A DNA stretch of 64,000 nucleotides from Enterococcus sp. DIV1094. GTDB lineage: Bacteria > Bacillota > Bacilli > Lactobacillales > Enterococcaceae. The first letter of the stretch is position 1; every line of letters begins with the position of its first letter. The position numbers and the translations under genes are program-made. The notes beneath the pieces are model-generated. The model worked only from the letters and a program-made list of their open reading frames with translations. It had not been told where the DNA came from and ran no database searches. Below, one piece after another: positions 26,389 to 62,898 of this stretch. The stretch spans positions 62,001 through 126,000 of the forward strand of contig NZ_CP147250.1 in the NCBI RefSeq assembly GCF_017316305.2. Direction: 5' to 3'.

Positions 26389-27243
26389 TTAATTCACCAC
26401 ATTACCTTCCCAATCGCGTTCAACTTCCATTCTCGAAACCGGAATATAGCCTAGATCACCGACAATATTGTTTTGTACTTCATCAGACAAGATGTAAGCT
26501 AAGAAGTCTTTCGTCAATTGACTTGTTTCTTTTCGTGTATACATATGTTCATATGCCCAGATCGTCCAATCATTTGTCGTTACATTCTCTTCAGTTGGTT
26601 CCACACCGTCGATTTTCAATGTATCTACATCTTTTGATACATAAGAAAAGGCCACGTAGCTGATTGCTCCTGGTGTATCAGCAACGATTTGACGAACCAT
26701 TCCACTAGAATCTTGTTCTTGTGAACGAATCGCTGTCTCGCCGTCTAAGACCCATTTTTCAAAAGTAGCTCTAGTTCCACTGCCTGCTGCGCGGTTCAAG
26801 ATGACGATGGGCTGATCTTTCCCACCTAATTGTTTCCAGTTCGTTAGTTCACCAGTAAAAACTTTTCTCAAATCTTCCATTGAAATGTTTTCGATACCGA
26901 CTTCTTTATTGACGATCGGTGTGATACCGACAACTGCCACTCGATGGTCGATCAATGCAGCTGCATCGATTCCTGATTTCTCTTCTGCAAACAAATCAGA
27001 ATTCCCGATCTCCACAGCTCCTGATTGGACTTGAGATAAACCAGTCCCGCTTCCTCCACCTTGTACATTGATAAATTTACCAGGATTTTCTGACTGGTAA
27101 GTTTCAGCAACCGTCTCCACTAAAGGCTGTAAAGCGGATGATCCGACCGCTGTGATTGATTCTCCTTGATCGACTAGGTTTGAACACCCAGACATTGTTA
27201 TGGCTAGTACAATCATTGGTAATAATAAACGTAATTTTTTCAT
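26389..27243 (-). CDS. pstS: Phosphate-binding lipoprotein PstS
   Basis: Extracytoplasmic phosphate receptor of the Pst importer. The 284 residues start with a lipoprotein signal peptide ending in the lipobox MSGC (Cys20), to be modified by Lgt. The phosphate-binding signatures are AVGSSALQPLV, GGGSGTGLSQVQSG and NRAAGSGTRATFEKW. AAGGAG precedes the ATG. First gene of the pst operon. Confidence 0.94.
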   Translation of the reverse strand: MKKLRLLLPMIVLAITMSGCSNLVDQGESITAVGSSALQPLVETVAETYQSENPGKFINVQGGGSGTGLSQVQSGAVEIGNSDLFAEEKSGIDAAALIDHRVAVVGITPIVNKEVGIENISMEDLRKVFTGELTNWKQLGGKDQPIVILNRAAGSGTRATFEKWVLDGETAIRSQEQDSSGMVRQIVADTPGAISYVAFSYVSKDVDTLKIDGVEPTEENVTTNDWTIWAYEHMYTRKETSQLTKDFLAYILSDEVQNNIVGDLGYIPVSRMEVERDWEGNVVN

Positions 27244-27274: not shown

Positions 27275-27315
27275 ATTTTAACATTTTCATTATTACTTGA
27301 AAATCAATTGATTTT
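27275..27315 (-). promoter_or_regulatory. pstS promoter with overlapping palindrome
   Basis: On the minus strand TTTTCA (27298-27303) and TAAAAT (27275-27280, preceded by TGT, an extended -10) are 17 bp apart. A perfect 16-bp palindrome, AAAATCAATTGATTTT (27300-27315), overlaps the -35 and could be an operator. Confidence 0.5.
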
Positions 27316-27377
27316 ATTAAATAACAAATAATTTAATATAATTGAAAAAAATACTATCTCAATAAATTTTTCTATGC

Positions 27378-27383
27378 TATACT
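27378..27383 (+). promoter_or_regulatory. Extended -10 promoter of a candidate small RNA
   Basis: TGCTATACT: an extended -10 with five of six consensus bases, oriented away from pstS. No good -35 at 17 bp. The predicted start is near 27389. Confidence 0.55.
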
Positions 27384-27388
27384 GGCAT

Positions 27389-27580
27389 TGAAATGTGTCT
27401 CTGTACCAAGCAAGCATTAACTTATTTCTTGCTTTCCCCAAAAAACAAGAAATACCCCAAAAGTTAATTCCCGCTCTTGCGAGACGCTTTCTCCATTTCT
27501 TGTAATGAACTACAGAAATGGCCCCGATAGAAAAGGACATGAAAATCTACTCTAACGAGTCTATTTCATGTCCTTTTTTG
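27389..27580 (+). ncRNA. Candidate structured small RNA with C-rich loops
   Basis: About 190 nt on the plus strand from an extended -10 to a strong terminator. Visible folding: a closing stem of 27395-27401 with 27481-27487; a 16-bp hairpin (27416-27431 with 27446-27453 and 27461-27468) with loop CUUUCCCCAAAAAA and a bulge ACCCCAA; a second hairpin 27494-27504 with 27511-27520; then the terminator. Unpaired C-runs appear four times (CCCC at 27436 and 27455, CCC at 27470, CCCC at 27522), as in regulatory RNAs that pair with Shine-Dalgarno sequences. No credible ORF. The only overlapping long frame is an antisense shadow without a start signal. It is inferred from sequence alone and matches no family I can name. 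Confidence 0.5.
27532..27578. terminator. Bidirectional terminator (cls and candidate small RNA)
   Basis: A perfect 14-bp stem AAAAGGACATGAAA with its complement (27532-27545 and 27563-27576), a 17-base loop, TTTTTT on the plus strand and TTTTCT on the minus strand. Confidence 0.85.
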
Positions 27581-27589
27581 TTCACTTTT

Positions 27590-29038
27590 TTACAAGAGTG
27601 GGGAGACAAGACGAGCCAAGCCCTCTTTTAGCTTGATCACCAAACCTCGTGCCTCATAGCGTTCTTTTGTCAGGCGCTCAGAAACTTTCGCATCCTCAAA
27701 AAAAGCACCGCGAACTTGCGTGGAGAGTCGTTCATCATAGATCAATGTATTCACTTCAAAGTCTAGACGGAAAGAACGCACGTCGATATTTGCAGATCCT
27801 ACGGAAACGATGCCGCTATCGATGATCATTGTTTTCGCATGGATAAAACCATTTTCATAGGTTTCGATGATTGCACCATATTCAATCAGTTCTGCAGCAA
27901 AAGAATATGTTGCCCAATAGACTAATGGATGATCTGGTTTGTTAGGAATCTGTAAATGGACTTTCACGCCCGACAATAAAGCCAATTTCAAGGCTTCATG
28001 AATCGATTCATCTGGAATATAATACGGTGTTTGGATCAAAATCTCTCGTTTAGCAAGTGAGATCATTTTAAGGTACGTCATTTTGATCTGTTCATGTTCT
28101 GAGTCTGGACCACTGGTTACGACTTGTAAAGCAATCTCCCCGCCTGAAGCAATGCTTGGGAAATAGCGTGCCGCATAGTTTACTTCTTTTGTATGTTGGG
28201 AATTCCAGTCCATCAAGAAACGGTTTTGTAACGCATAGACTCCTTCACCATAGATCCGTAGGTGATTATCTCGCCAATAACCAAATTTTTGTACGAGTCC
28301 CAAATACTCATTTCCGACGTTGAATCCACCGGTATAACCAATCTGTCCATCGATCACTACGATTTTTCGGTGATTGCGATAATTGATCCGCGGGTTCAAA
28401 TAAGGAACAAAAAGCGGGAAAAAGAAAGCCACTTCTCCGCCAGCTTCCTTTAACTCATGGAAGAACTTAGATGAAACTTCTGTTGATCCCCACGCATCTA
28501 ACAAGACCCTCACTTGGACGCCTCTTTTTGCAGCCGCAGTCAATGCTTGGCATACTTCAACGCCTAAGCTATCACTACGATAGATATAATACTGTAAATG
28601 GATGTGATCGGTCGCTTGATCGATATCCTCGATCAGACGGTCAAATTTCTCACGACCATCGGTAAATAATGTGACATCATTACTTGTGGTGTACAAGGTG
28701 CTTTCACCAACAGTCAACATGTAGATCAACTGTTTTACATCAACTTGTCCAGTAGGCGGGTGCGGGTAAAGCCCGCGCATCAATGCCTGCCGATCCTCTT
28801 CGATCTCTAAGTTCTTCCCGATCTTTCCTTGGATCTTCAAATCAAAAATCTTATCTTTTGAAATGCCTCGCCCAAAGAATATGTAAAGGAAAAAACCAAG
28901 GATCGGGATAAAAGTCAACACCAGCAACCATGCCCACGTCTGAGCAGTCTCTTTTCTTTCTGTAAATACGATTACTAGAGATAATAGTGTATTCGTAAGT
29001 AGCAAGATCGTTGAAAAATTATCAAAAATAATATCCAT
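27590..29038 (-). CDS. cls: Cardiolipin synthase
   Basis: Condenses two phosphatidylglycerols into cardiolipin at the membrane. The 482 residues have two N-terminal membrane helices (residues 8-65) and two phospholipase D domains, with HKD motifs NHRKIVVIDGQIGYTGG (about 220-236) and HAKTMIIDSGIVSVGSAN (about 398-415), both with intact His, Lys and Asp. GAGGTG precedes the ATG. Cardiolipin content and mutations in cls are linked to daptomycin resistance in enterococci, which fits with liaXYZ in the same window. Confidence 0.94.
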   Translation of the reverse strand: MDIIFDNFSTILLLTNTLLSLVIVFTERKETAQTWAWLLVLTFIPILGFFLYIFFGRGISKDKIFDLKIQGKIGKNLEIEEDRQALMRGLYPHPPTGQVDVKQLIYMLTVGESTLYTTSNDVTLFTDGREKFDRLIEDIDQATDHIHLQYYIYRSDSLGVEVCQALTAAAKRGVQVRVLLDAWGSTEVSSKFFHELKEAGGEVAFFFPLFVPYLNPRINYRNHRKIVVIDGQIGYTGGFNVGNEYLGLVQKFGYWRDNHLRIYGEGVYALQNRFLMDWNSQHTKEVNYAARYFPSIASGGEIALQVVTSGPDSEHEQIKMTYLKMISLAKREILIQTPYYIPDESIHEALKLALLSGVKVHLQIPNKPDHPLVYWATYSFAAELIEYGAIIETYENGFIHAKTMIIDSGIVSVGSANIDVRSFRLDFEVNTLIYDERLSTQVRGAFFEDAKVSERLTKERYEARGLVIKLKEGLARLVSPLL

Positions 29039-62799: not shown

Positions 62800-62835
62800 A
62801 ATGCCGTGCATTGGAATCAAGGGTGGACCCCTTGG

Positions 62836-62870
62836 ACTGGTTCGGAAACTTCCCAGGATAAAAAACTAAG
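62836..62870 (+). promoter_or_regulatory. Candidate preQ1-I riboswitch aptamer
   Basis: ACTGGTTCGGAAACTTCCCA followed by GG and ATAAAAAACTAAG. It has the size and layout of the preQ1-I aptamer: a 4-bp P1 (CTGG 62837-62840 with CCAG 62853-62856), a 12-base loop starting TTC and ending in C, and the A-rich tail identical over 12 bases to that of the Bacillus que leader. Against: the loop triplet that pairs with the tail in Bacillus (TAG with CTA) is absent; here CTT (62849-62851) could pair with AAG (62868-62870) instead. Just before it a hairpin CAAGG/CCTTG spans 62818-62834. The Shine-Dalgarno follows 13 bases later, so control could act on translation. Confidence 0.5.
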
Positions 62871-62898
62871 TGTCTCTATAGAAAGGAGATTGGAAATA

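Follow-up and report, generated by a model that had tools for sequence, protein, structure and literature searches.

A conserved small RNA gene, about 190 nt long, almost certainly lies at positions 27389-27580 on the plus strand of the window (the whole 64,000-nt stretch of Enterococcus sp. DIV1094 DNA analyzed here). It sits between two genes which, following an earlier reading of the letters alone, we take to be pstS and a cardiolipin synthase-like gene, cls. That sequence-only reading had proposed a small RNA with clear secondary structure and four C-rich stretches left unpaired; covariation, a conserved promoter element and a terminator now uphold it. The RNA is probably a non-coding, trans-acting regulator of the C-rich kind that pairs with ribosome-binding sites, as judged from its anatomy and from analogy with characterized RNAs. 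The features of the locus, in window coordinates, are:

26389-27243, minus strand: pstS, the constant divergent neighbor of the small RNA
27275-27303, minus strand: likely promoter of pstS, TTTTCA-17-TAAAAT plus TG; many relatives have a similar one
27353-27361, plus strand: ACTATCTCA block in the -35 region, kept in near relatives (alignments), not a TTGACA-type hexamer
27372-27383, plus strand: extended -10, CTATGCTATACT, which includes TGCTATACT at 27375-27383
27389-27580, plus strand: small RNA (fold, covariation, model-found relatives), its 5' end placed from the -10
27390-27401, plus strand: 5' strand of stem P1, GAAAUGUGUCUC (fold, covariation)
27416-27431, plus strand: 5' arm of stem P2, 16 nt (fold, RNAalifold, covariation)
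27432-27445, plus strand: apical loop CUUUCCCCAAAAAA, the first C-rich segment; inner UUU-AAA pairs are possible
27446-27468, plus strand: 3' arm of P2, carrying the bulge ACCCCAA (27454-27460), the second C-rich segment
27470-27472, plus strand: CCC linker, the third C-rich segment
27481-27491, plus strand: 3' strand of P1, GAGACGCUUUC (fold, covariation)
27493-27521, plus strand: hairpin P3, with a further UCCCCA in its loop in distant relatives
27522-27525, plus strand: CCCC linker ahead of the terminator, the fourth C-rich segment (alignment, pairing probabilities)
27531-27579, plus strand: intrinsic terminator hairpin and T-run (sequence, fold)
27590-29038, minus strand: cls, convergent with the small RNA

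Fold and conservation of the RNA

The minimum free energy of 27389-27580 is -61.1 kcal/mol, whereas shuffled versions average -26.6 (z -8.3) and none of 200 was as good, in line with the claim of about 190 nt of clear secondary structure on the plus strand. The main hairpin, described as 16 bp long, does have 16 pairs, interrupted by the 7-nt bulge. The four C-runs at 27436-27439, 27455-27458, 27470-27472 and 27522-27525, said to lie in unpaired segments, have unpaired probabilities of 1.0, 1.0, 0.81 and 1.0, respectively, against a mean of 0.30. The strong terminator also claimed there consists of a stem and a T-run ending at about 27579, and a terminator-like hairpin with a T-run was found in all 22 members inspected. 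A stricter rule requiring a T-run of at least 6 letters gave a site in 17 of the 22, two of them wrong (L003, L005), and was replaced; in L002 the site first reported was internal and the real one is near 193.

The stems are supported by compensatory changes. When the window's own fold was counted on alignment A2 (17 sequences, aligned with MAFFT without structure), 12 of 34 base pairs showed double changes and 93.6% of the cells were paired, a result equaled by none of 500 shuffles. From the same 17 sequences RNAalifold predicted P2 and P3 (26 pairs, 11 with double changes) and did not predict P1. An alignment of 24 members found by covariance model R1 was fitted to the structure, which favors its count: 23 of 34 pairs with double changes (4 of 11 in P1), 92.2% of cells paired and again none of 500 shuffles as good; the best slid version of the structure reached 10 pairs. 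G-U cells outnumber A-C cells in this fitted alignment, 51 to 14, and therefore the plus strand is favored as the transcribed one.

Conservation extends to the C-rich segments. In a 13-sequence alignment the first two C-runs are present in every row and the fourth in 11 (L005 and L007 differ), while the third, CCC at 27470, is not conserved. The sequence-only reading had named loss of the stems and C-runs in close relatives as a refutation; the comparison with relatives did not refute the proposal. UUCCCC stands in the P2 apical loop of all 24 aligned rows, and the CCCC bulge in P2 is present in many species; many also have a C-rich linker before the terminator, either GCCCCGA or AUCAUCCCUU. 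The P3 loop is plain in close species and becomes UCCCCA in most distant ones. Mean column conservation is 0.89 for 11 C-rich columns picked by hand, 0.58 for 53 other unpaired columns and 0.77 for 68 paired columns, over 17 rows thinned to below 90% identity. As a separate observation, (A)UCAUCCCUU replaces the GCCCCGA linker near the terminator in the distant members L015, L025, L052, L053, L063 and L304.

Promoters, neighbors and distribution

The claimed extended -10 is present as TGCTATACT. Nothing in this part of the element varies across 19 aligned sequences, the window among them, and the -10 block, complement AGTATAGCA, is likewise invariant in the gap alignment of 19 sequences; L052, L053 and L304 differ from TGCTATACT at one base. 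A -35 hexamer of the sigma-70 type is absent upstream, so a simple promoter scan lists no sigma-70 promoter pair on the plus strand. The ACTATCTCA block in its place is a possible activator site. Between the promoters of the small RNA and pstS there is a further block, GTTATTT...TTTTCAA (27297-27325, minus strand), which is kept in most relatives and could be the site of a shared regulator. It is plausible, from this arrangement, that one regulator serves both promoters.

A blastn search of 27340-27590 against 80 pstS loci located the small RNA between cls and pstS in close relatives. The PstS proteins of two E. mundtii records (L001, L045) share 96% identity with that of the window, which places the source of the window in E. 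mundtii or very close to this species. Model R1 matched in every one of the 15 genomes in the L001 genus group; 12 of these had contributed sequences to the model, as judged by contig and position, and three (G006, G007, G008) were new. With 150 candidates scored per genome, each of the 15 has one accepted copy; G005 gave another, weak match (L096), which has no promoter of this kind and was dropped. In 105 family genomes at E <= 0.05, R1 gave matches in 27 and R2 in 29; the match in G071 (L110) was rejected on inspection, leaving 28 accepted genomes. Inspection of the sequence ahead of pstS in 30 genomes, of which 29 had no model match and the other was G071, added six members: G049, G050, G052, G062, G066 and G067. 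The 28 accepted matches and these six place the small RNA in at least 34 of 105 family genomes, a lower bound, since 47 model-negative genomes lay outside the inspection. The small RNA is common to a large part of the enterococci and, within the limits of these searches, occurs once per genome.

Within 700 bases upstream and on the antisense strand, TCCCCA occurs together with an extended -10 (at most one base changed) at 21 of the 80 named pstS loci. It occurs alone at six (L031, L036, L041, L063, L068, L073), and the -10 never stands alone. Of these six, L063 (Vagococcus) shows similar loops in its hairpins and may be a member.

Every one of the 28 accepted genome-wide matches is divergent beside pstS; 25 have cls on the other side and three a hydrolase-like gene. 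The six members found by inspection were searched for beside pstS, so that position is true of them by construction; on their other side are cls in one, the hydrolase-like gene in three, and neither within the fetched stretch in two. Over all 34 members the neighbors are pstS (34), cls (26), the hydrolase (6) and neither (2). The steadier tie, judged by 28 matches against 25, is to pstS rather than cls, and the suggested link to the phosphate operon gains from it. More weakly, the fixed place beside pstS suggests that the RNA and the phosphate operon may answer to one regulator.

Several single loci deserve mention. The pstS gene adjoining the small RNA in L325 (G049) has one in-frame TAA, and its match is limited to residues 59-283. 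In G016, neither cls nor the small RNA lies beside pstS; an ftsX-like end is there instead, a call made by comparing its last residues by eye with the window's ftsX. Judged by its gene order, G016 may be E. faecalis. L007 is labeled E. faecalis 13-SD-W-01, yet its PstS is 80% identical to that of the window and it has both cls and the small RNA; set against G016, this label looks doubtful.

Proposed action, targets and alternatives

Transcription would start at the extended -10, divergent from pstS, and end at the RNA's own terminator, both signals being present in the sequence. As fold and covariation show, the P1 closing stem and the two hairpins present from two to at least four C-rich segments in loops, bulges and linkers. 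These segments probably pair with the G-rich Shine-Dalgarno regions of several mRNAs, which would lower translation or stability of the target mRNAs, as with LhrC, RoxS and FsrA. In a bolder proposal the RNA does for phosphate what the iron-sparing C-rich RNAs do for iron, being co-controlled with the divergent pstS operon and silencing a set of enterococcal mRNAs under phosphate limitation, with the number of UCCCCA loops tuned by lineage; we consider this rather unlikely.

Candidate targets were sought in 1.2 of the 2.77 Mb of an E. mundtii genome (G001), in which a simple script called 1201 genes. Potential sites abound, because GGGG occurs within 18 nt before the start of 122 of the 1201 called genes against 19 of 1201 further upstream. 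Duplex energies with the start regions of these genes, compared with 12 shuffles per segment, gave top-60 means of -15.7 for segment A (shuffled -15.4, sd 0.8; 0.4 sd), -12.3 for segment B (shuffled -10.7, sd 0.7; 2.2 sd) and -15.5 for segment C (shuffled -14.8, sd 0.5; 1.4 sd). Target enrichment above shuffles is at most weak. For seven window genes, including pstS and cls, predicted pairing with the small RNA ranges from -3.2 to -12.2 kcal/mol.

The best candidate target, murA, was rejected. In 12 of the 15 genus genomes its ATG is preceded by 5-7 consecutive U and then GGGGGGAA; the leaders of the other three have GGAGGG. In 30 further genomes (nine with no start codon found by the script, their leaders read by eye), the GGGGGG form appears in none of 16 more distant genomes with the small RNA (G049, G050 and G052 included) and in one of 14 without it (G016), and so does not track the presence of the RNA; for two of these 14, G016 and G046, the region upstream of pstS was read as well, and the other 12 were assigned by model only. 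The murA leaders of the genus group (L171-L185, gene-strand positions 1455-1500; 621-666 in L177) keep the U-run and GG(G/A)GGGAACAAC ahead of the ATG, the bases upstream diverge, and the U-run with GGAGGG also occurs in many genomes without a small RNA match. A second candidate, pta, was set aside since its complementarity is not conserved.

The motif TTGGGGA before ATG was found once in the window (1.04 expected). In five genomes TTGGGGA-N4-11-ATG exceeded its reversed-pattern control in each, among the matches listed. Of the sites translated, most opened frames shorter than 60 codons, which makes a true start at the ATG improbable; L272, L247 and L265 are the few with real-looking starts. 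A site pair near the small RNA in G006 and G007 proved to be inside an lgt-like gene. At L272 (G006, near C1:511046), TTTTGGGGAGGACTAC precedes the ATG of what is presumably a PRPP synthetase-like gene and is complementary to the apical loop of the small RNA, making it a possible target.

Hence the proposed mechanism rests on analogy and anatomy. For the idea of a Shine-Dalgarno-blocking RNA, as first put forward, the C-rich unpaired segments hold up; pairing at 0.4, 2.2 and 1.4 sd above shuffles and the failed murA comparison count against it.

This weak enrichment would also suit an RNA that binds or titrates a protein, the repeated UCCCCA loops being sites for an RNA-binding protein, for example one with KH domains such as KhpA/KhpB, and not for mRNA pairing. 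In several distant species one RNA contains two or three copies of UCCCCA, in loops or bulges of the predicted fold. We judge this reading unlikely, as the C-rich sites of Gram-positive RNAs are documented as RNA-pairing sites in PMC8079631 and PMC8216469. Pairing could instead be directed at another small RNA or other G-rich RNA, with the small RNA acting as a sponge rather than an mRNA regulator; in B. subtilis the G-rich RNA RosA is indeed a pairing partner of C-rich RNAs (PMC8216469), but nothing here speaks for a G-rich partner RNA, and a sponge is quite improbable.

It is also possible to see the element as cis-acting, either as an antisense or terminator structure for the 3' end of cls or as part of the pstS leader. 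The terminator hairpin does adjoin the cls stop at 27590 and may work in both directions. Such a role would not, however, account for conservation of the promoter and the 5' two thirds of the RNA; the G-U/A-C asymmetry favors the plus strand, 8 of the 34 members have no cls beside the small RNA, and the RNA points away from the likely promoter of pstS, all of which makes a cis-acting element very unlikely. Finally, a small mRNA for a peptide can hardly be right: an ATG frame exists (24 codons at 27393), but the predicted 5' end is just 4 nt away from its ATG, so that a ribosome site would not fit; the ATG is absent in L018 and L022, and the frame breaks and varies in length and sequence between close species. 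The small RNA is, on these sequence features, non-coding.

According to a 2020 dRNA-seq study that included E. faecalis, no global RNA chaperone is known in Enterococcus. In such a genus the small RNA is a practical starting point for work on RNA-based control, because it comes with at least 34 species-level genomes, clear covariation, a fixed neighbor and a fixed loop motif.

Relation to known RNAs

No Rfam family reached its gathering score over the small RNA in a cmscan search. Seven sub-threshold matches were returned at E up to 5 over 27300-27640; to our knowledge none is a known C-rich sRNA family. No model of LhrC, RoxS/RsaE or FsrA, provided that Rfam has one, was among the cmscan matches at gathering score or at E up to 5. 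Elsewhere in the window the PreQ1 riboswitch scored 40.8 at 62831-62875 on the plus strand, just above its gathering score of 39.

In literature searched for enterococcal sRNAs, pstS, C-rich RNAs and phosphate, no title or opening of an abstract among the records listed concerned this RNA. The words pstS, cls and cardiolipin are absent from the main texts of PMC7724050 and PMC10117718; PMC5593968 lacks pstS and has cls three times, for daptomycin resistance. The latter (Sinel 2017) lists 61 E. faecium RNAs by coordinate. An attempt to map the small RNA onto that list through the RNase P, FMN and T-box positions in G006 failed as the distances disagree. The RNA may be among those of PMC5593968 or the supplements of PMC7724050 under a number. 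Judged from Rfam and from main texts and titles, we take it as a new family of the C-rich sRNA kind.

A weak likeness is to the streptococcal sRNA SpF43 (RF02436), with a match of 15.3 bits at 27517-27589, from the end of P3 to the terminator; it is far below the gathering score of 70 and the main C-rich part lies outside it. RoxS/RsaE of Bacillus and Staphylococcus share with the small RNA C-rich single-stranded regions, which in RoxS and FsrA pair with mRNAs (PMC8216469), and differ in that the small RNA matches no Rfam model. FsrA and IsrR are described as iron-linked C-rich RNAs acting on mRNAs, whereas the present RNA lies beside the phosphate operon. Control is by ResDE/SrrAB or Rex for RoxS/RsaE, by Fur for FsrA, whose targets encode iron proteins, and by LisRK for LhrC, which pairs with AG-rich Shine-Dalgarno regions. 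The LhrC family of Listeria monocytogenes resembles the small RNA in anatomy. In PMC8079631 the family comprises seven homologous RNAs of 105-121 nt (LhrC1-5, Rli22 and Rli33-1), whose C-rich motifs lie in a hairpin loop and in the single-stranded stretch before the terminator hairpin, as here, and do the pairing with Shine-Dalgarno sites. Unlike these two-hairpin RNAs, which have several copies per genome, the enterococcal RNA is about 190 nt long, has the closing stem P1, two internal hairpins and a terminator, and is present as one accepted copy in each of the 15 genus genomes. Its own C-motifs are the apical UUCCCC, the bulge ACCCC and the final linker GCCCC, together with a single UCCC linker (27469-27472) that is not conserved.
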